DNA from: Ectocarpus siliculosus
Taxonomy: Eukaryota > Sar > Phaeophyceae > Ectocarpales > Ectocarpaceae
NCBI GenBank assembly: GCA_000310025.1
Contig: FN649729.1
Coordinates: 1,991,207-2,055,206 of the forward strand
Direction: 5' to 3'
DNA: 64,000 nucleotides
The position numbers were made by a program, and so were the translations under genes. The notes beneath the pieces are model-generated. The model was not told the origin of the DNA, made no database searches, and saw only the letters and a list, made by a program, of their open reading frames with translations. Of the stretch, positions 36,067 to 48,102 are shown piece after piece. Positions within the stretch are counted from its first letter, which is position 1; each line of letters starts with the position of its first letter.

Positions 36067-38181
36067 TCAGATTTCGGCATATCGATCGCAACTTGAGCAT
36101 GTACCCTGGCTAATGCTGTGACAACTTTGAACTACCTGGCCCGTCGGGCTGCTCTGTGTAGGTGCTTGGCTGCTCGAACCGGTCTGCGCAGGTGCTTGGT
36201 TGCTAGACCTGGTCGGTGCAGGTGCTCGGCTGCTCGGACTGATGTCGGAAGAGGTCGAACCCGAAACCCCGCCCTGAATGAAAACAACAGTTGAGTTGCG
36301 AGACGAGCAAAACAACATGCCCGGAGGCCTGAGCAGTCCCACACGACACCTTCAATGCGTACAGCTCAAGCCACATCATGGCATGGACGAAGGCCTTCAT
36401 ACGACCCTGGAAGGCCCGTGCCTGTAGACTGGTACATCGCCTACACATTGTGCCAACTGCATGTGGTGCAAGATACCCCACCTCGAAATGGCTTCCTTGC
36501 TGTGAAGCACAACCCTTACGAGCCACCTTCTCTGCATTCTCGGCAAACTTCTGACGGAGTGGTTCATCGAAGAACTCCTCATCCGAGAATTCCACAACCT
36601 GAAGAGCAGCTGCTAGAAGGTTATTGCCCGCCGTAGGGTCCTGGCAGAGTGGACAAAAGTAACCCTTTTCGACCAGGCCAGATCCAGGCGGTGCCTGCAA
36701 ACATGAGAGCGCGCACGGGTGCTTTCATGAAGTGCGCATCAATATATATCCTAGTGTCTGTCGTGCCCAAAAAACACTTATCTACAACTTGAATGAACCG
36801 AAGCAAGAAAAAAAAACACCGCGATAGCGGCAGCTACCGTGCTGATTGACCAGCAAGAACTGATTTACTTGCAAGTTCACTTTGTTTACCATGGAGATAT
36901 GCATACGACCATCCAAAAAATCATGGTGAATATTGAGCATCGAAATCGGGCGCTTACATCTGTCGTCCTGATCGGCATGCCCTTGGTCTTGTGCTGTGGG
37001 CAGAAAAAGATCGGCTCGCACGGTAAACCAGGGAACTCCGAGAGCATCTTGATCATGACGGAGAGGACTTTCGACAGGGCCGCCCACGCATGGACCTCCT
37101 CACCTCCTCCGAGAACCTCCACTTTCAGCATGTTGTCGTGCTCAGAGTAGTCTAAACTCAGCGAGAACAACCCCTTTTCCGCACCGTTCCCCACTATCAA
37201 AGCCCCGTATCGCCAGAAGGGGTAAGGATAGCCCAAGTGGCAGCACCGCGCTAGGAGACGCTCGACAAAACCAGGGGGCAAACCAAGACTGAACGAGCAT
37301 GCCACAGAAAGCGTGAGGTCGTACTTCCTCGCTTGGTTTGCTTCCTCGCGCCTGATACTATACTCAGGTGGGCGCGTTGTGTCCATGCGCAAAAGGATCA
37401 CCAAGCCCCCATTGGGGTCGTTCGGTAAGGGAAACGTCAGCCCTGCGCTCTTCAACGCCAGGAGAAGGTGTGGTGCGAGCTCTGGAGTCCACAGTTCCTC
37501 AGCGAGTTGCGGCTCGAAAACATGTTCGTTGTCCAGCCGGCGCAAGCTTGCAAGGTTGGTCACCCGAATACCACCCAGATCAATGTCGCCGTATGAATCT
37601 CGCCTGTGACTAAACAAAGGGTCCAGAACTGTGGCAAACCACTCGACGTCGAGGAAGACGTAGTTGCCGTATTCCACCAGCCCTCCCTCCCACTTCCTGC
37701 ACACAGAGAGGTTGTACGATACAAAAACCGGGCCCGACAGCAAGTGGGACGCAGAGCAGAGCATAAATGTGCACTAGCTCTACTGGCTGAAAACGGTTCT
37801 ACTCTATTCAACGTGAACGTTTTTCCTGGTGTGTGCACCTGATGTTAAGCCACACAAACATCACAAACATAAAATATATTTCCGATCCATGCAAACCAGG
37901 ACGTTGAACAGCTGGTACTCGTAGGCAACCAAGCACAAAGTCAACCCAAAACCGCACCGCCGATTGAACTTACCTGATCAAGATCGCACCAGGCATTGCC
38001 GCTTCTGGGGCGGCTACCGGCGTGCCGGCTCCGTTCAGCTCAGCCACCTTGGCGTGCCACTTTTCCTCCAAATCCGCTCTTGTGATGCCCCGGGTTCGTT
38101 GTTCGGCCTTGCGCCTAAAATTGCACGGGTCCGATCGAGAGGAGGTGAACTTTCCATGAATGCATCCCCGACCGCAAGATG

Positions 38182-38216
<35 letters not shown>

Positions 38217-41200
38217 GTGGTGCAATGCTTGAAACGCTTGAGCGGGCACAGCAACGCTATTGCTCCATGTGGAAAAAACACACATCGCTTAAGCCGTTGA
38301 CGTGCATATCGATGTACTGGGACTGCATGACTTGGCGACAAATACATAACATCTTTGGCCTTACCTACTGGAAGAGGCCAGCTCCTCAAGCATCTCAAGG
38401 GCGAGTCGGTAGCTCGGCGGAAGATGCATGGTAACAGTCCTCTTGTCATCGACAGGATCGTATATCATGCGATGAAAAAGCCCCGGGGTGCTCTTGTCGC
38501 AGGGCCAGCCTGTTCCCCCACCGAACGCTGGTGCCGAGACGCCTAGGCAAGACTGCGCGCAGCTCACAAGGCTGACGCCATCTTCCAACGAAAGTCCGTG
38601 GGGTTGATGTCCATGTGCTTTCTCCATCCAGGACTTCAGCCATCGGCGGCTCTCGCATTCTACGTCATCCGCTACTGTACCCCTGGTCCTTACCACGCGG
38701 TCCCACTTGTTCCCCACAAGGATCACGTTTGCATTCGGCACACGGAAAGTCAAGTAACGTAGCCAGGGGGCAATGGCAAGGTCTTCAAGGTTCAAGCCAT
38801 CCATCTCGCTGGCTTTCGCCGCATCCCATACCAACAGGTACACGGCACGAGGGGTGAGAAATAGCTGGAGCAGTCCGTAGTAGACAACCTGTCCGGTGGT
38901 CAAGGTGGGGGATCACAGACACGTCGAGGGGCGCACATGACGGATACATGGTGTCGAAGGAAGTGAATTAAGTAACAGGGTGCAGGAGAATACGATACGT
39001 GTTAGTTCACTGCCGGGGTCCAGGACAGTGTGAAGTCCTTATCGCAATGATGCTGACCGAGGAATGATGCGACTAAGGACGGACGATGTCACCCGCCGGC
39101 TGCATGTTTCTGAAAACGATGAAGAAAACTAGACAACCCCACCCCGCAATAAGATCATGTCCGCTGACGGATATCAATGGCAGTGCGCCCGCGCGGACTG
39201 GGATATGAAAGCCATGTAAACCCCGTCCTGTACTCGCACCAAACGTCCATGCGAATAGCTTGAAACTCCGGTTGGAAGCTGCTCACGACAAAATGAAACG
39301 ATCTCGACCTCCAACCTCGGCCTCGATGATTGCCACAGAACGTCCAATCAAAAGTACACCGACCCACCACGCAAGCTGACTGGGTCAACGCACGCGTGTG
39401 CAAGGAACACAATGGGTCTCACCTGACCGGCACAATCAAATATCCGAATTGGATGACCATCGACTTTGTGGTCTTCGACATCCACGTGGACAGTGCTTTC
39501 CACACCACCGTTTTGTGTCATACACGGCCCCCCGGTCGTGATGCTGCGCCGCAAACTGCGGCAGTGCATTGAGTGAACAAGGTGAGTCAAACCAACCATT
39601 CATGTGATAATGGACGCCCGCACGGCACTTATGCCGCTCAAGTTTTATCTTTCGCGCCGGAGCAGCCCGCAGTGTGACTACAACACGTGAGGGGATGCCA
39701 ATCGGAGGAGAAGAGCAGCGCACGACAATGACCCACGAATGAGCCACGTAGATTCGTACCGAAACAGTCGGAAAGATGGCACTGCGTGCGATCGATTTGT
39801 TAAATGCGTTTTCCTTGGGCTATTCATCGCACCCCGGTGCCATCTCTCCGACCTCGGTGCCATCTCTCCGACCTCGGTGCGGAAATATCAATTCAAGCAT
39901 TTCGTTTAGGATTTTCAAGGCACCGGTGCGGTCTCTCCGACCGGTGCGATTCCCGATGAAATACACACAGGTGTTGTATGCACGCACCCCGGTGCCATCT
40001 CCCCGACCGGCACCATACAGTGTAGGCATACCCACGCTCACGCACGGTCTTCTTGCATACACGTGTAGGTACCGTTGTTGCTGGTGGGAAGCACACCGGT
40101 AATGGCAACGTAGGCTGGTACCAGTTTTCCATGCAGCGAGGGGTCTTGTGTTTGAAGGCGAGTTTGGCTATGGCGACAAGGACAACAAACGATGTGGTTT
40201 CCCTCTGAGGTACCGGTACATACGATATCAGATTATCTTCTGCTTTCGTTTCGGTCTTCCTCTACGGATACCAGTACGTGCGCAGCAGTACAACAGTTTC
40301 GTGTTGTGTAGAGTGGGGTAGGGTGCGGCTTGTACGTTGTGTGTTTGGTTGAGTGTACGGCTGGCAACTTCCATACCAATAAAAGAATGAAAGCAACTGA
40401 CATCCCGCGCGAACGGCGACCATGCATACGTGCATGCAGGACAAGAGTGATGCTCCGCGGACACCGTCCCCACGTGCGAAAGGTACGCACACGTGCCTAA
40501 TTCCGTCAGCTGCAAAGGAGCTCAATGTTGGATTTGGGGGTCGGTGAGATCCGGGTGCGATCTCACCGACCCCGGTGCGTAAATCGAATAAAATCATGTC
40601 GTTCTTGCATTTTTTTGCACCCCGGTGCCATCACCCCGAACGTTGCCATCTCTCCGACCGGTGTTATCTCTCCTACTATTACGGTACTTTTGAAAGCTAC
40701 TGTTCGAAGCGTATACGGGGTGCCGCCCTGATTGCACCTACCTATACACGAACGTCGCCAATGATTTTCGCAACATCAACAGTAGATTTTTGAGAAGCAC
40801 CGAAAAACAATCGCACTGGCGATCCCGCGGGGAGGGCAGGTGCATTGGTTGGACCATATTCCCCTGCAGGACACAGTTTTACCCTACACACACTCAACAT
40901 TTGTGGAGCGCCGGACCTCGCTCTCACCGTTCAACAAATATGGCTGTATAGCACCGTCCTTCAATGACTTACAACAGCGGGTTAGTGTCGGCGCTCGTAC
41001 CCCAGCGGTCAGCGATGTGGGACCTGTGAAGAAAATACTTGCACAAAGTCGAGTGAGCACATTTTGTACGAGGAAAAACGGAGAAATCGATAAGTGGCCT
41101 TCGTACCTTGTTTTGCCAACAGTCTCCTTTCCAATGATGACGACTTTAAGCGGTCGGGTCACAGCGGTAGTTCCGCCCTTGAACATGGCTTCGTAGTAGC

Positions 41201-44200
41201 CCCTCACCGCCTGCACGCCACCCGCCACGATCGCCTCGGGAGGGTGCTCCCACGGGTTTCGGGAAAGGTCCAAACTTCGAAGCCCGTCAAACACGTCCAG
41301 AAGACGGGCTAAATCCACCGGAAGCGTACCTAGAAAGCATCAATTAACGCACAACATGTGGTCGGGCGGAGCGATGCATAGTCATGCTGCCAACTGCAAC
41401 GATGGGTGTGCATACCACACTACTCAGCGCCTCGATCTCGACCAGGTCACCTACCCTCCGCGTCCACAACTAGGCTTCCAGTTGCGGCGTGGATGTACCG
41501 CCTCCCCTTCAAATTACGTTCGAACTTGCCGGGCACCGACAAAAAAAAACACTATATTCTCCGTAACACTTGTTGTTGTTGTCTTCACATTAAAAACCGT
41601 TACGATCTCTCTCTACCCAGTACCTTCATATGTCGGTACTTATCCAACACTTGACGCGGTCGGTTCCAGTGGTCACAGGCTATCTTACCCTAAAAAGGTA
41701 CGCTCAAACAAACACTGCTGTGTAGGCAGGAATAGATCCTTGGTTCAATCTCTTCAATTCGGGTAGAAATTTTGTGTCAAACCACGCGGACGAATAAACA
41801 CGCTCTGGAGACCACACAGCGAGATCGACAGCGTAGCAGGGGCAGATCAGGTCAGCCCACCTATGTGAAACATGCAAGCGCCATCCAAAGCTTCAAAGGT
41901 ACTTTCGATAACCTGGATGCTCTCCGCACGCACTGAGCAAACACAAGTATTTTGCATACAGAGCATGCCCAATGAAACCATACGACCGACTTTGGCGCCA
42001 TCCATTATTCAATCTAGGCCTCCCAATTCCGAACTATGCGACTGCCCCGCAAAGCACACGATAGAGCGGGTGCACCATAGGTTATTATTTTCATCAGCCC
42101 CCATGACCATTACCTATGTACATGCTGGCACAATATCACCGTCGAGAAACGAACAACGTATTCAACACACCTGGCCGGGCTGCCATTGAACCAGTCTGGT
42201 CCTGTCCGAGTGTGTGCCATAGTCCTGCATGGAAACGTGGTGTGATCGGTTGATTTTGTAGAACAGAAAAACCGTGACACAAGTAAGGACATACCGTCGG
42301 GTTAAACCGACGAACCTCAATCATGCACACTCCCCGAGTGACCCGCAGAGAACATTCAGCATCGCTAGGGCGCCTCGGCAACTGGCAACGACTTACTTGC
42401 ATTTCAACAAGCTCAGCGGTGAGCTTCCCTTGCATATCTATATAGTGTCTACAGATCGTGTGCATGCCGTAACGCACGAATAACGAGCTACTCTCAAAGT
42501 GCTGGAAAACTACCTGATGTATGCATAGAATGCAGCTTTTGGTACAATCCCTACTGGAAAACTGGTTGTTGGGAATCCAAAGATGACCCAGCTGCCTCAG
42601 AGCTCCGAGTTCCTTCGGGATGGTCCCTGCACAAGCAACACAAAACCTATCGTATGTATCAGCAGTTCAGAACTGAACACGTGAGTCGTGTATTACTCAC
42701 CCTGTCTGCAAGACACATCTTCTAGAAGCCTTGATTACGCGATCTTCCCATATTGTATGTTGATGTTCTGTTGCATTGTGAGGGGTCGATACCCAAGGAG
42801 CTGGGAGCGCTCACGGGGCCGCAGGAGCTTGGTGGAAACTTCAATCGGCTTATAACAACTGCAAGGGTCTTATTTCATTGTATTTCCAAACACTGCTTCT
42901 AAAACATTTGTCCCGCGTATGTAGTTGGCGTCCACTCACTGGTCTAGAAGCCGGGACATTATTTTTGTTTTGACCCGCAACCATCTCTCCGTTTTCCTTC
43001 TTCCACTTACAGGTCCCATTCCGCCGGCGCTGGGAAAGCTCGCAGCGCTTCAAGATCTGAACCTCGACGGGAACCAGCTAAGCGGTGAGACACTGTTTAG
43101 ATGTGTTGAAAAAAATTCCCATGAAGTTTCAAGATGAATCCCGTGTATGCGTGCGCGGGATTCACCTTGAATCCAGATCGACCTTTTTCGGTTCCTCACC
43201 TGTAAGCCGGTTTCTTGCGATCAAAAGCTTTTCCAGCTTACTCAGCGCTCCCAGCTCCTTGGGAATGAGTCCTGTACACAAGACATAGGGAAATTAGGTA
43301 GAGCAAAAGATATCCCGCGAGTTCTGAAATTTCGTACTCGCCTACGTAGTTGGCGGGACAGGATCTACGGAGATGGATGTACTAAACCAAATGTACCCAC
43401 TCACGCCGAATCGGTCGGGAAAGAGCTATCAAATCACGTGTTCACCCACCGCTTAGCTGGTTGCCGTAAAGGATGAGCTCCTTCAGTGCTGAAAGGTGCC
43501 CCAGCTCCGATGGGATAGGCCCTGCAAGAGGACGGGTGGACGGAGTACCTGAGCGGGACAAAAAGTATTACCCCGCTTTCTAGAACATCGGTCCCGCCTA
43601 CTAATACGCGGGATTCATGCACGTTCACAACTTGAAGGAAAATATAACGCATTTCGAATTGTGTTCAACTCACCATCTAACTTGTTGCGGCTGAGGTAGA
43701 GGTCTTGCAGGGCGCCAAGATTTCCTAGCTGCGGCGGGATATGGCCTGTAGACGAGGGAGTCAACGCAGGGTAGTTTGGCAGGGTACAGAAAAGTTATCC
43801 CGCGAGTTCTGAAATTTCGTACCCGCCTACGCATACACGGGATTCATGCACGGAACAAGTTTGGTAAACATTCAACATCCCCAAGAAAGTTGCAAAAGTT
43901 GGTACCTGTCAGCTTGTTGTTGTGGAGGGCCAGCACCTGCAGCTCGCTGAGAGCTCCCAGCTCCGGCGGGATGCGCCCTGCAAGCCAAAGGGGGGATAGC
44001 GGAGATAGTAAGCGGGGCAAAACACAAAAATCCCCCGACTTCTAGAACACCTACTCACCCATGCATAGGCGGGTACGAAATTTCACAATTGCGGAACTCG
44101 CGGGACGTCTTTTGCTACGCGTGTCGGTGAGGAGGCGGAGAAGCATTTAGTCAATTCTCTGTTTTTCTCGTACTGCTCTCCTGCTTGCAGGTCATATCCC

Positions 44201-47200
44201 TCCGGAGCTAGGGAAGCTTGGCGCGTTGAAGACACTCGGACTCACCGTCAACAAGTTAGATGGTGAGTCCAGAGATGAAATCCATTTCATTTACTATTTT
44301 GTTGACACAAGGTACATGAATCTCGCCGACGCGTCGGCAGGATTCTTATCTCGTGAACAAGAAAACTTTCAACTCTTGTTCGATTCTCTCACCTGTGAGG
44401 CTGTTGTCGTTGAGCCAAAGCATCTCCAGCCTACTAAGTGCTCCCAACTCCTTGGGGATGGGTCCTGCACAAGAATGCAGCAGGGAGAAAATATCAGCAA
44501 GGACAGTTGTAGAAAAACATGCGTAGGAAAAGATGTCCCGCGTTGGCGTCCTCTTATTTCGTGAACAAGAAAACTTTCAACTCTTCTTCGATTCTCTCAC
44601 CTGTGAGGCTGTTGTCGTTGAGCCAAAGCGTCTCCAGCCTACGAAGTGCTCCCAGCTCCTTGGGGATGGGTCCTGCACAAGAATGCAGCAGGGAGAAAAT
44701 ATTAGCAAGGACAGTTGTAGAAAAAACTGCGTAGGAAAATATGTCCCGCGAGTTTCGAAATTGTGAAATTTCGTACCCGCTATTTCTGAAGTTTCGTGGA
44801 CGCCAACGCGTTGGCGTCCACGAAACTTTTGTACGGGACCAATGTTCTAGAAAGCGGGGGGTTGTTTTCTTTTGTCCCGCTGAGCTACTCCGTTCCGTCC
44901 GTCCGCTTGCAGGCCCCATCCCATCGGAGCTTGGGCACCTTTCAGCACTGAAGAAGCTCTACCTTTCCCGCAACCAGCTAAGCGGTGAGTCAACATGTGA
45001 TTTGATGACTGTTCCACGACCGATTTTGCGGCGAGTCCCGTGTACGAATCTCGCTGATGCACGTGAGTGGACGCCAACGCATCGGCGGGATTCATCTTGG
45101 AAACTCGAACAAAATAACTTACCAGTTAGCTCGTTCCCCCTAAGGCTGAGGTACTCCAGTACGGCGAGCCGTCCAAGCTCCACAGGGATGGGACCTGCAA
45201 TCGAAGGAGAAAAAACGAGAACACAGTACCCATAATGTAGCGGGAAGAATCAAAGCTAAATGCCCCGGCTTCTAGAAACACCTACTCAATTAACGCAACT
45301 CGTAGCAAAAGATGTCCCGCGAGTTCCGAAACTGCGAACCTTCGTTCTCACCCACGCATACACGGGATTCATAATGAAAATTCATGGGAATTTTTTTCAT
45401 CACATCTAAAGAGTGTCTCACCGCTTAGCTGGTTCTCGCCGAGGTTTAGCTCTCGAAGCGCTGCGAGCTTTCCTAGCGCCGGCGGAATGGGACCTGTAAG
45501 TGGAAGAAGGAAAACGGAGTGATGGTTGCGGGTCAAAACAAAAGTAATGCCCCGGCTTCTAGACCAGTGAGTGGATCCTGCCAACGCGTTGGCGTCCACG
45601 AAACTTCAGAAATAGCGGGTACGAAATTTCACAATTTCGGAACTCGCGGGACATCTTTTCCTACGCATTTTTTTCTACAACTGTCCTCGCTGATATTTGC
45701 TCCCTGCTGCATTCTTGTGCAGGACCCATCCCCAAGGAGCTGGGAGCACTTAGTAGGCTGGAGACGCTTTGGCTCAACGACAACAACTTCACAGGTGAGA
45801 GAATCGAAGAAGAGTTGAAAGTTTTCTTGTTCACGAAATAAGAATCCTGCCGACGTAATTAGCGTCATAAAAGTTATGCCGCTAGTTCTGAAGTTTCGTG
45901 GACGCCAACGCGTTGGCAGGAACGTTTTTCTTGACGCCGGGGGATTTATTTTGTTTTCCCCGGCTAACTTCTTATTCCCTTTCGTCTGGCAGGCACCATC
46001 CCGGCGGAGCTGGGAGAACTCACGGCACTGCTAGAGCTATACCTCAACGGGAACGAGCTGAGCGGTGAGTCCCTAGAGCCCATATCGCACAATTCCAACA
46101 TTCTTCTGTGAAGTTGCCGTATGCGCAGATGAATCCTGTGCACGCGTACGCGTCCACGAAACTTCAGAACTAGCGGGATAACTTTCATGACGCCAATTAC
46201 ATACGCGGGGGCGGGACCGATGTTCTGGAGGTTCAGAAGTCGAAAGAACAAATGTTTTTTACTATCTACTCAACTCACCCTCTAGCTTGTTGTAGCTGAG
46301 GTCGAGGGTCTTGAGGGCGCCAAGATCTCCTAGCTGCCGCGGGATGTGGCCTGTAGTTGAACGAGTCAAAGCAGGGCAGTTTAACGGGATAAAAGCAAAA
46401 GATACCTCCCGCTTTCTAGAAGATCCGTCCCGCCAACTAAAAAAAAATCCCCGCGTTTTCCGTACAAAAGTTTCGTGGACGCCAACGCGTACGCGTCCAC
46501 GAAACTTCAGAACTAGCGGGATAACTTTTATGCCGCCAATTACATACGCGGCATTCATGCTCAATTTCATGACTCACCGGACAGCTGGTTGTTCGACAGG
46601 TTGAGAAGGACGAGCGCTGTGAGCTTGCCCAGCTCCGACGAGATAGGCCCTGCAAACAGACAAGCAAAACAAATACTCCATTATTTGGGGGGGGACCACC
46701 AAAAAGTTAATGTTCGATCTCCGTAGAACTATGGACGCGGACGCGTTGGCGTCCACTCACGTGCATCAGCGAGATTCGTACACGGGACTCGCCGCAAAAT
46801 CGGTCGTGGAACAGTCATCAAATCACATGTTGACTCACCGCTTAGCTGGTTGCGGGAAAGGTAGAGCTTCTTCAGTGCTGAAAGGTGCCCAAGCTCCGAT
46901 GGGATGGGGCCTGCAAGCGGACGGACGGAACGGAGTAGCTCAGCGGGACAAAAGAAAACAACCCCCCGCTTTCTAGAACATTGGTCCCGTACAAAAGTTT
47001 CGTGGACGCCAACGCGTCGGCAGGATTCTTATTTCGTGAACAAGAAAACTTTCAACTCTTCTTCGATTCTCTCACCTGTGAGGTTGTTGTCGTCGAGCCA
47101 AAGCGTCTCCAGCCTACTAAGTGCTCCCAGCTCCTTGGGGATGGGTCCTGCACAAGAATGCAGCAGGGAGCAAATATCAGCGAGGACAGTTGTAGAAAAA

Positions 47201-48102
47201 AATGCGTAGGAAAAGATGTCCCGCGAGTTCCGAAATTGTGAAATTTCGTACCCGCTATTTCTGAAGTTTCGTGGACGCCAATGCGTACGCGTCCATCCAA
47301 CTACATACACGGGATGTTCCACAGCATCATCAAATGACATAACTTAAACACCTGCCAACAATATCGCAACATGTGTACTTGGTACCTGTGAGCTTGTTGT
47401 GGTTGAGCCACAGCTCCTGCAGCTCGCTGAGAGCCCCTAGCTCAGGTGGGATGTGGCCTGAAAGCGGACAGGGGGGACAGAATAGCTCAGCGGGGCAAAA
47501 AAATATTATCTCCCCGCTTTCTAGAACACACCTTCTCACCTACGTACGTAGGCGAGATACATGCATTTTGCTTCTCCAGAAGTTGAAATAAAATTCACGC
47601 TCGACTGTCCCGGGGTCACTATCTAACTCGTTGTAGCCAAGGTTGAGGCTCTCCAAGGCGCTGATACTTGGTGGGATGGGTCCTGTAGAATTGGATTTTG
47701 CCAGGGCTGTTGCTGCTGGAATTCTCAAGAACAAATGAGTTGTTTCTAAACGTACCTACTTCCACGCGTGTAGGGAGTAAGTAGTCTACACGTGTCCGCG
47801 TGTTCTAGAAGCTGCAAGCGTTGATCAGGCATCTACTACACGAATTCGTAGGGATGGTCAAGCACATTTATCTTTACACGAAGCACGTGCAAGCAGTAGA
47901 CTAAATGCTGAAGAACTCCTTGTACACCTCGGAGGCTGTTTCCTCCCAGGGAAAGATTTACCACCCGGCCCTGGGCGTTGACTTCGACTCCATGCCATGT
48001 CGCTATGGCAGCATCTGTGTCCCAGTTGCCTCTCTGCCTCCATCCAGCCCCGCCGGTCGAACGAAACAGGGCAACCAGTGCTTCACGGTCCGTGGAAGCC
48101 AT
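36067..48102 (-). CDS. ROCO LRR-GTPase (24 exons, 1185 aa as assembled)
   Basis: Exon 1 (48102-47928) encodes MASTDREALVALFRSTGGAG, the LRR N-cap. Fifteen LRR exons follow: 47682-47620, 47457-47386, 47147-47076, 46910-46839, 46649-46578, 46350-46279, 45493-45422, 45194-45123, 44672-44601, 44464-44393, 43977-43906, 43745-43674, 43521-43450, 43271-43200 and 42626-42555. The Roc-COR part uses 41329-41107 (P-loop GKETVGKT), 39555-39423 (DCAGQ, switch II), 38888-38365 (NKWD), 38114-37974, 37696-36958 (COR) and 36694-36350 (YFCPLCQ, possible zinc site). The last exon is 36273-36067, a Ser/Pro/Gln-rich tail. Total 3558 nt, frame intact. ROCO proteins couple a Roc GTPase to a COR dimerisation domain. 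Brown-algal members have been proposed as immune receptors and reported to shuffle LRR exons. The actual set of LRR exons used in mRNA is unknown, and opposite-strand LRR exons sit inside the introns. Confidence 0.88.
38184..38213 (+). repeat. AC dinucleotide run
   Basis: About fourteen AC units in a ROCO intron, 70 bp from the exon at 38114. Confidence 0.9.
39825..40675. repeat. GCACCCCGGTGCCATCTCTC-type degenerate repeat in a ROCO intron
   Basis: Phrases built from CCGGTGCCATCTCTCCGACC and its inverse GGTCGGTGAGATCC recur at about 39832-39885, 39920-39950, 39985-40013 and 40540-40672 within the intron 39556-41106. No coding signal. Confidence 0.6.
42349..42418 (+). pseudogene. Decayed LRR exon, opposite strand, 70 nt
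   Basis: CCGCAG acceptor and GCG|GTGAG donor are kept, and the 3' half reads LATTYLHFNKLS-like, but the length is 70 instead of 72 nt and the GxIP start is lost. Confidence 0.5.
42786..42855 (+). pseudogene. Decayed LRR exon, opposite strand
   Basis: Starts GGTCGATACCCAAGGAGCTG (G-S-I-P-K-E-L-G-A-L) but then diverges; neither a clear CAG acceptor nor a GT donor remains. Confidence 0.6.
43013..43084 (+). other. Opposite-strand LRR exon (intact)
   Basis: 72 nt with TTACAG acceptor and GCG|GTGAG donor, encoding GPIPPALGKLAALQDLNLDG plus NQLS. It is close in sequence to the minus-strand exon 45493-45422. Confidence 0.85.
44191..44262 (+). other. Opposite-strand LRR exon (intact)
   Basis: 72 nt with TTGCAG acceptor and GATG|GTGAG donor, encoding GHIPPELGKLGALKTLGLTV plus NKLD. 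Confidence 0.85.
44325..44338. repeat. Palindromic hinge core GCCGACGCGTCGGC
   Basis: Perfect 14-nt palindrome between plus exon 44191-44262 and minus exon 44464-44393. Confidence 0.9.
44789..44828. repeat. Perfect 40-nt palindrome at an LRR orientation switch
   Basis: Half-site AAGTTTCGTGGACGCCAACG followed directly by its exact reverse complement. It lies between the minus exon 44672-44601 and the plus exon 44913-44984. Confidence 0.95.
44913..44984 (+). other. Opposite-strand LRR exon (inverted copy of 46910-46839)
   Basis: 72 nt with TTGCAG acceptor and GCG|GTGAG donor, encoding GPIPSELGHLSALKKLYLSR plus NQLS. By eye it is identical to the minus-strand exon at 46910-46839, with intron flanks also matching in inversion. 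Confidence 0.88.
45580..45593. repeat. Palindromic hinge core GCCAACGCGTTGGC
   Basis: Perfect 14-nt palindrome between minus exon 45493-45422 and plus exon 45723-45794, followed by GTCCACGAAACTTCAG as in the 40-nt hinge. Confidence 0.9.
45723..45794 (+). other. Opposite-strand LRR exon (inverted near-copy of 47147-47076)
   Basis: 72 nt with GTGCAG acceptor and ACAG|GTGAG donor. It encodes GPIPKELGALSRLETLWLND plus NNFT and differs by two bases from the minus-strand exon at 47147-47076; the flanks match in inverted orientation. Confidence 0.85.
45993..46064 (+). other. Opposite-strand LRR exon (intact, inverted cassette)
   Basis: 72 nt with CTGGCAG acceptor and G|GTGAG donor on the plus strand, encoding GTIPAELGELTALLELYLNG plus NELS. 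It is opposite to the ROCO gene and so cannot be spliced into it in this orientation. Confidence 0.85.
46142..46153. repeat. Palindromic hinge core ACGCGTACGCGT
   Basis: Perfect 12-nt palindrome followed by CCACGAAACTTCAG, between plus exon 45993-46064 and minus exon 46350-46279. Confidence 0.88.
46469..46508. repeat. Near-palindromic hinge between LRR exons
   Basis: Left half GTGGACGCCAACGCG joined to right half TACGCGTCCAC, outer arms AAGTTTC/GAAACTT. It looks like a hybrid of two hinge types. Neighbouring LRR exons on both sides are now in the same orientation. Confidence 0.85.

Follow-up and report, generated by a model that had tools for sequence, protein, structure and literature searches.

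Brown-algal LRR-ROCO genes encode leucine-rich repeats (LRR) in 72-bp exons, for which shuffling, selection and alternative splicing have been described (Teng et al. 2024, PMC11378527). A somatic-recombination hypothesis for brown algae was put forward by Zambounis et al. 2012, as cited in PMC11378527; according to the available text of the latter, there are so far no reports of ROCO loci recombined in somatic cells or of site-specific recombinases. Comparable arrays of 90-bp LRR exons, which are likewise of fixed length, phase-locked and shuffled between genes, occur in Tetrahymena, where unequal crossing-over and retrotransposition were invoked and where the word 'orientation' is absent from the text available to us (PMC6564038). 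Here, we describe an immune-receptor-like LRR-ROCO gene in a 64,000-nt stretch of DNA from Ectocarpus siliculosus (contig FN649729.1, positions 1,991,207 to 2,055,206; hereafter the window), whose introns contain LRR exons on the opposite strand and a palindromic sequence, the joint, between neighbouring exon-bearing cassettes. Receptor segments that are bounded by conserved sites and joined by deletion or inversion are known from V(D)J recombination, including inverted V kappa segments; this process is somatic and uses RAG and recombination signal sequences (RSS) of heptamer-nonamer type. A conserved signal is also present at the cassette ends described here, namely the palindromic joint, though it is not an RSS heptamer-nonamer. 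We consider it likely that the LRR cassettes of at least 12 loci are shuffled by site-directed, orientation-blind cutting and joining at these joints, probably in the germline.

The window gene resembles the brown-algal genes, as far as these are covered by the available text of PMC11378527, in its LRR-ROC architecture, in the use of one 72-bp exon per repeat with codons at nt 3-71, in its shuffled exons and in diversifying selection on binding-face residues. It is located on the minus strand and spans position 48102 to below 38.4 kb of the window. Joining its first exon to 15 LRR and three ROC exons resulted in a stop-free frame of 707 aa with Pfam matches to Roc (E 2.4e-13) and LRR_1 (E 9.7e-60), the ROC GTPase domain lying downstream of the LRRs as in brown-algal LRR-ROCO genes; a weak COR-B match follows ROC (E 8.5e-5, 22.8 bits versus a cut-off of 27). 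Exon scan, splicing and nhmmer confirmed the initial annotation, made from sequence alone, in its count of 15 sense, five intact antisense and two decayed antisense LRR exons. It was also right that the intact exons share one phase and good splice sites and that nearly all have 72 nt: in the window scan, LRR exons of exactly 72 nt numbered 14 on the minus strand (42555-47457) and five on the plus strand, and all 19 are bounded by AG/GT, stop-free and in one common register, in which the first 2 nt complete a codon and the last nt opens the next. The uniform phase of one-repeat exons extends over the sense series, in which 14 of 15 exons have 72 nt and one has 63 nt. All 19 match the LRR motif with 0 mismatches, and every other AG/GT-bounded match to this motif in the 64 kb requires 2 or 3 substitutions. 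The 63-nt exon (47620-47682) is in frame and lies beyond the outermost joint found; the two decayed plus-strand copies, one of them a weak match, were detected by nhmmer. The LRR exons of the window are as follows.

47620..47682, minus strand: sense LRR exon 1, 63 nt, in frame (nhmmer and splice)
47386..47457, minus strand: sense LRR exon 2, 72 nt (motif/splice scan)
47076..47147, minus strand: sense LRR exon 3, 72 nt (motif/splice scan)
46839..46910, minus strand: sense LRR exon 4, 72 nt; identical, flanks included, to the antisense exon 44913-44984
46578..46649, minus strand: sense LRR exon 5, 72 nt (motif/splice scan)
46279..46350, minus strand: sense LRR exon 6, 72 nt (motif/splice scan)
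45422..45493, minus strand: sense LRR exon 7, 72 nt (motif/splice scan)
45123..45194, minus strand: sense LRR exon 8, 72 nt (motif/splice scan)
44601..44672, minus strand: sense LRR exon 9, 72 nt (motif/splice scan)
44393..44464, minus strand: sense LRR exon 10, 72 nt; direct tandem duplicate of exon 9
43906..43977, minus strand: sense LRR exon 11, 72 nt (motif/splice scan)
43674..43745, minus strand: sense LRR exon 12, 72 nt (motif/splice scan)
43450..43521, minus strand: sense LRR exon 13, 72 nt (motif/splice scan)
43200..43271, minus strand: sense LRR exon 14, 72 nt (motif/splice scan)
42555..42626, minus strand: sense LRR exon 15, 72 nt (motif/splice scan)
45993..46064, plus strand: intact antisense LRR exon, 72 nt (motif/splice scan)
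45723..45794, plus strand: intact antisense LRR exon, 72 nt (motif/splice scan)
44913..44984, plus strand: intact antisense LRR exon, 72 nt; inverted twin of sense exon 4
44191..44262, plus strand: intact antisense LRR exon, 72 nt (motif/splice scan)
43013..43084, plus strand: intact antisense LRR exon, 72 nt (motif/splice scan)
42783..42832, plus strand: decayed antisense LRR exon (nhmmer E 9e-6)
42345..42423, plus strand: decayed antisense LRR exon, weak match (nhmmer E 0.0011)

The joint is an intronic palindrome of about 24 bp with the consensus TCCCGCCnAYGCRTnGGCGGGA and a GC or, less often, TA centre. It is the most informative feature and was absent from the initial annotation. A 15-base word representing one half-site type led to its detection; this word has 17 matches, one of which (C68, L020) is accompanied by neither cassette nor site. 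Motif finding in 169 introns returned TCCCGCCnACGCGTnGGCGGGA both with symmetry imposed and without, and in unconstrained expectation maximisation on these introns the palindrome was the top motif, with r 0.97 to its own reverse complement. Two good half-sites separated by a free spacer were present in 141 of 182 introns (15 loci) versus 1 of 182 shuffled ones; introns outside about 60-450 nt or containing N were excluded from motif finding and from the half-site search. As controls, mainly one-strand LRR arrays gave 5 of 154 pieces of 193 nt and 6 of 45 long introns, and the rest of the window gave 1 of 292 pieces. The joints of the window are listed below.

42909..42935: joint, spacer GTA
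43137..43162: joint, spacer GC
43334..43360: joint, spacer GTA
43590..43615: joint, spacer TA
43819..43844: joint, spacer GC
44051..44076: joint, spacer GC
44319..44344: joint, spacer GC
44796..44821: joint, spacer GC, perfect 26-bp palindrome
45067..45092: joint, spacer GC
45344..45369: joint, spacer GC
45574..45599: joint, spacer GC
45898..45923: joint, spacer GC
46132..46157: joint, spacer GC
46475..46500: joint, spacer GC
46529..46555: joint, spacer TAC; together with the joint at 46475, encloses a filler of about 54 bp that contains no exon
46731..46756: joint, spacer GC
47002..47027: joint, spacer GC
47271..47296: joint, spacer GC
47532..47559: outermost joint found, spacer GTAC

Sense exon 4 and its antisense twin belong to an inverted pair, 44806-45080 and 46743-47017, which is identical across 275 bp and both members of which end at joints. 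The perfect motif fits, this inverted twin and 11 further loci of the same kind confirmed that the arrangement in the window goes beyond chance. One cassette of the window is present as a direct tandem duplicate at 44344-44542/44552-44750, with no joint between the copies.

Comparison of the arrays with one another revealed that the cassettes also end where the joints lie. Within 3 nt of AYGCRT we found 135 of 302 ends of homologous blocks (3.2% expected), and 144 of 285 were 4 nt or less from a joint centre (4.1% at random); the blocks were compared all against all, and neither they nor their ends are independent. An alternative explanation is that no dedicated system exists, and that microhomology repair or template switching at a chance intronic palindrome, together with unequal crossing-over and subsequent selection, shaped the arrays. 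In its favour, palindromes are prone to rearrangement, and ordinary direct tandem duplication is seen in the cassette pair mentioned above. We nevertheless regard this explanation as improbable, as a two-arm site with a near-fixed centre occupies 141 of 182 introns between differing cassette types, as the adjoining Y/R bases reassort at 2-bp resolution, and as few sites occur in the mainly one-strand LRR arrays (5 of 154 pieces). Plain unequal crossing-over as the sole cause was rejected, since it keeps orientation while cassette orientation is randomised.

The centre of the joint was analysed by an arms-only scan (n=155), which yielded the central pair GC in 132, TA in 17 and another pair in 6 cases, GC and TA both being self-complementary. 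The Y/R bases flanking a GC centre assort independently (51/27/27/10, p 0.42) and each stays with its own half-site, so that the exchange lies within the 2 central bases; the half-sites themselves reassort between cassettes. Spacers of 141 joints included 105 of 2 nt (GC 91, TA 12, two others), 27 of 3 nt and 5 of 4 nt. Each of the 27 three-nt spacers is GCA/TGC, GTA/TAC or GCC/GGC and can be interpreted as a pair of 2-nt ends with a one-base overlap, 22 of them then joining a GC end to a TA end; the overlap pattern also applied to 33 of 34 three-nt spacers when all joints of the 12 arrays were scanned. Such spacers fit those left by repair-joined cohesive ends and are less like strict serine recombination.

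For the joints, two described systems are among the nearest comparisons. Internal eliminated sequences (IES) of Paramecium are, in the sections available, short segments whose inverted ends lie at a self-complementary dinucleotide and which are released by TA-centred cuts followed by end joining, the excised pieces concatenating (PMC3077386, PMC7374600). The cassettes, too, are flanked by inverted repeats at such a dinucleotide (GC 132 and TA 17 of 155), but IES are removed from somatic DNA according to these sections, whereas the cassettes carry exons, are kept in the assembly and have GC as main centre. The att sites of serine integrases share inverted half-sites with the joints and, in the text available, a 2-bp crossover that needs complementary bases (PMC4111918). 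Joining of matching 2-bp centres only, as expected for a serine recombinase, does not describe the joints with their three- and four-nt spacers (27 and 5 of 141). To our knowledge, serine-integrase centres are normally not self-complementary, unlike those of the joints, and the 3-nt joints fit end joining better.

The mixed arrays of 12 loci, the window included, contain 191 intact cassettes, 113 sense and 78 antisense as assigned relative to the first or ROC exon of each locus. The gene had been singled out as one notable locus; it is instead a member of a class of at least 12 loci. In L001-L011, intact LRR exons are present on both strands, ranging from 3 sense and 2 antisense (L001) to 17 and 7 (L010). 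Searches covered one assembly of 189 Mb with N runs in several arrays; 20 loci were fetched first, picked among the LRR matches listed (one from the 15-base-word search), and many listed matches were left unfetched. Eight other LRR arrays (L012-L019) have 55 of 60 exons that pass the splice test facing one way, and L020 is not an array. Among loci fetched later, L029 is mixed, and L033 and L034 contain many decayed copies on both strands.

In these arrays the unit of rearrangement is mostly a single exon. Of 157 blocks (at least 95% identity, at least 120 bp) in 12 arrays, 133 contain one intact exon, 23 none and one two, which shows that cassettes mostly move one at a time. Segments between consecutive joints, with a median of 240 bp, carry one exon in 105 of 143 cases, compared with 30% under random placement, two in 23, more in 3 and none in 12. 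The 12 exon-less fillers are short (median about 55 bp), an example being 46475-46555 of the window.

Orientation of the cassettes looks random, even among nearest relatives. Neighbouring cassettes occur in the combinations -- 44, -+ 43, ++ 43 and +- 39, and the 71 nearest-relative pairs comprise 24 sense-sense (SS), 35 antisense-sense (AS) and 12 antisense-antisense (AA) pairs, versus 24.9, 34.3 and 11.8 under random pairing. For the 13 pairs with intron divergence of 1% or less, the numbers are SS 3, AS 7 and AA 3. All cassettes taken together are 129 sense and 112 antisense (p 0.30), whereas counting intact cassettes only gives 113 versus 78 (p 0.014). As the cassettes are frame-neutral and occur near-identically in opposite orientations with a shared joint, re-orientation has occurred repeatedly.

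Assembly error, or two overlapping genes on opposite strands, would provide another explanation for this arrangement. N runs are indeed present in the mixed arrays L001, L007, L008 and L009, and near-identical repeats of about 275 bp may mislead assemblers. Misjoining of intact cassettes could hardly produce 34 decayed antisense ones, and 12 or more loci share the joint. A search of the opposite strand within 20 kb revealed no first exon, LRR-ROC exon or ROC exon at the 12 mixed loci, and the interpretation of the antisense exons as a second gene was rejected on these grounds. Altogether, we regard an artefact or an overlapping gene as highly improbable.

The joint is largely specific for these arrays. 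At a motif score of 11, 137 sites were detected in the 12 arrays, 2 outside the arrays in the same loci and 0 in shuffled sequence. A strict joint pattern occurs at 9 places genome-wide, compared with 0 for the reversed control, and each of the 9 has an LRR cassette of the fetched loci at a distance of about 350 bp or less. With up to 2 mismatches, the GC-type joint has 91 genome places versus 20 for controls; the 17 places with 1 mismatch or less comprise 14 beside cassettes and 2 within 1 kb of LRR protein matches, and one such place, on C411, has no cassette within the 2 kb fetched. Among the matches listed, 33 GC-type places have two mismatches, 23 of which belong to the fetched LRR loci, and the other 10 lie elsewhere or were left unfetched. 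The TA-type joint has 22 genome places versus 2 for controls, and those with 1 mismatch or less are all at LRR arrays (8 of 8, 3 judged solely from an LRR protein match). At L030 (G000:C20:1520700-1522700), one of the 9 places with the strict pattern, an orphan decayed LRR cassette lies by a perfect joint, with no other cassette in 2 kb.

This distribution has to be compared with that expected if each cassette were a non-autonomous DNA transposon with a captured LRR exon. The half-sites would then be terminal inverted repeats and GC/TA a 2-bp target duplication, and a transposase acting in trans would insert copies next to existing cassettes. The inverted half-site and the 2-bp centres are common to both cassette ends, copies are found at many loci in both orientations, and the genome contains matches to piggyBac-type transposases, all in agreement with a transposon. 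A genome-wide spread of insertions was not observed: of the near-consensus places (1 mismatch or less), 16 of 17 with a GC-type site and 8 of 8 with a TA-type site are at LRR loci, an assignment that for five of the 24 uses solely a protein match within 1 kb. Moreover, the cassettes abut, and half-sites reassort between them. A transposon origin of the individual cassettes is therefore unlikely in our judgement, although it deserves serious consideration.

The fate of antisense cassettes was analysed by counting decayed copies, defined as nhmmer matches with E up to 0.1, fragments included, that are not intact, i.e. contain N or a stop, lack AG/GT or have a core more than 1 substitution off. 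Decay affected 34 of 112 antisense and 16 of 129 sense cassettes (p 0.0008), the 63-nt sense exon of the window being tallied as decayed; without L010 the values were 24 of 95 and 13 of 109 (p 0.018). As antisense cassettes are decayed more often, their present orientation matters to selection. Among close pairs, exon changes at the binding-face codons 13, 15, 17 and 18 numbered 53 of 87 in SS, 60 of 89 in AS and 10 of 21 in AA pairs, the last being a small sample of 9 pairs, whereas a uniform distribution predicts 17% for 4 of 23 codons. Because AA pairs also concentrate changes at the binding codons, the data suggest that antisense cassettes were once expressed or spent time in sense orientation. 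Only the concentration within the exon was used for this argument, because choosing pairs by low intron divergence biases exon/intron ratios. Pooled pN/pS values (SS 0.97, AS 1.06, AA 0.76) did not clearly separate the classes, and dN/dS per orientation class as proof of function was dropped for this reason. Some cassette pairs, AA pairs included, have identical 120-nt intron flanks and 1-3 nonsynonymous exon differences; selection, exon conversion or targeted mutation could be responsible.

These results also bear on a somatic switch, by which individuals or cells would flip cassettes in life and thereby turn LRR exons on or off. The initial annotation had proposed such a switchable repertoire, in line with the published somatic-recombination hypothesis, and its structural part stands, since the cassettes are frame-neutral and near-identical inverted copies share a joint; switching within an individual is not seen in the sequence. 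Randomised orientation, the identical cassette in both orientations within the window gene and the concentration of antisense pair changes at binding codons (4 of 23 codons with 10 of 21 changes) agree with a switch. The excess decay of antisense cassettes (34 of 112 versus 16 of 129) speaks against a routine somatic switch and against the regular flipping-on of each cassette that was originally envisaged. The on/off switch of LRR exons is plausible but unproven, and we give flipping during life little credence; as a matter of timing it is compatible with site-directed cutting and joining at the joints.

Starting from the one-exon unit, the joint site, its centre, the randomised orientation and the specificity versus controls, which the above comparisons demonstrate, we propose the following mechanism for orientation-blind shuffling. 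An array consists of single-exon cassettes of about 240 bp, each a 72-nt LRR exon with a partial intron on either side, joined at palindromic sites. A putative nuclease or recombinase would recognise the joint, and its double-strand cut would leave short self-complementary cohesive ends. Ligation or end joining could then rejoin a cassette lying between two cuts, or transfer it, or a copy of it, to another cut site. Because such a cohesive end is its own complement, a cassette would enter either way at about equal chance, and because all exons share one phase, sense cassettes can presumably contribute to the spliced transcript, antisense ones remaining within the intron. Selection would keep sense cassettes and diversify their binding residues, while antisense cassettes would remain silent, decaying or being re-flipped. 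Whether a dedicated system of this kind is still active, cutting joints, re-ligating, inverting and exchanging cassettes between loci, possibly somatically too, is a more tentative proposition, to which we assign somewhat less than an even chance.

Several observations weigh against site-directed shuffling as the general explanation. No convincing enzyme was found among the results of serine recombinase, tyrosine recombinase and piggyBac profile searches of the genome. The serine recombinase profile PF00239 has a single genome match, beside a TnpB-like frame, and a divergent or split gene could escape such a search; PF00589 has four matches (E 6e-5 to 0.006, one over the cut-off), and DDE_Tnp_1_7 of piggyBac type has 29, which resemble transposon copies. 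No clear site was detected in 41 of 182 introns, and for 141 of 285 block ends the distance to a joint exceeds 4 nt. The window intron that lacks a joint separates the direct tandem duplicates, showing that ordinary tandem duplication also acts. The 12 mixed loci were chosen partly because matches lay on both strands, and a half-site matrix refitted without the window, by which 17 of 18 window introns still pass, leaves out the window for this matrix only, the sites of the other loci having been located by a model that included it. Eight mainly one-strand loci contain 4 sites of score 11, two of them in L014, and the minority strand of L012-L019 holds decayed copies (14 of 79 nhmmer matches, 7 in L014). 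Conversely, L027 (5 to 1) and L028 (4 to 1) are mostly one-strand despite joints. Joint and mixed orientation are thus not perfectly coupled in L014, L027 and L028, which slightly lowers our confidence in this explanation.

Exon shuffling in brown-algal ROCO genes is already known, as the initial annotation had noted; the palindromic joint and the two-way cassettes are what the present analysis adds. The available text of PMC11378527 reports no recombination site and favours alternative splicing, so that the joint and the orientation-blind cassettes are new relative to it; its main text does not contain 'antisense', 'opposite', 'orientation' or 'reverse', and the sole match to 'inver' is 'invertebrates'. 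Among open-access titles and the starts of abstracts, no report of opposite-strand LRR exons or of a joint site in the ROCO family was found, and an earlier mention elsewhere is possible. The joint is a candidate for the missing cis element of the proposed ROCO recombination. It indicates where to seek breaks, which junctions to amplify, what bait to use for an enzyme and which change to score, namely flip, loss or gain of a single cassette. A dedicated and active system, if it exists, would diversify eukaryotic receptors independently of V(D)J and of lamprey variable lymphocyte receptor (VLR) assembly. Were its enzyme to exist, DNA rearrangement would have evolved an additional time as a route to receptor assembly, in organisms only distantly related to vertebrates, and an orientation-blind exon shuffler of natural origin could be studied.

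The enzyme searches yielded two minor observations. The sole PF00239 match found (L022, G000:C16:5120587-5123775) adjoins a TnpB-like zinc-finger frame, and we take it to be an IS607-like element in a eukaryotic genome. For nine of the piggyBac-type matches, the open frame has a length of exactly 251 aa, as expected of recent copies of a transposon.

Further features of the locus, outside the LRR array, are the following.

47928..48102, minus strand: ROCO first exon, N-terminal cap, MASTDREALV... (stop-free splice)
41107..41329, minus strand: exon with final LRR and start of ROC (Walker A) (splice and Pfam)
39423..39555, minus strand: ROC exon 2 (splice and Pfam)
38368..38888, minus strand: ROC exon 3, 3' end approximate (splice and Pfam)
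36886..37770, minus strand: COR-B-like open frame (Pfam match under the curated cut-off)

The first exon has 60 matches in the genome, the window copy counted. An inverted duplicate of the gene is located about 130 kb away (G000:C4:1890190-1902613; L001, L021), and shares 98.9% identity with it along 2,265 bp of the ROC end and 92.7% along 2,233 bp of the first-exon end; its ROC protein is 98% identical to that of the window gene. The array of this duplicate holds about 8.4 kb of N, and six cassettes are visible before it, whose matches in the window array are scattered and non-collinear.

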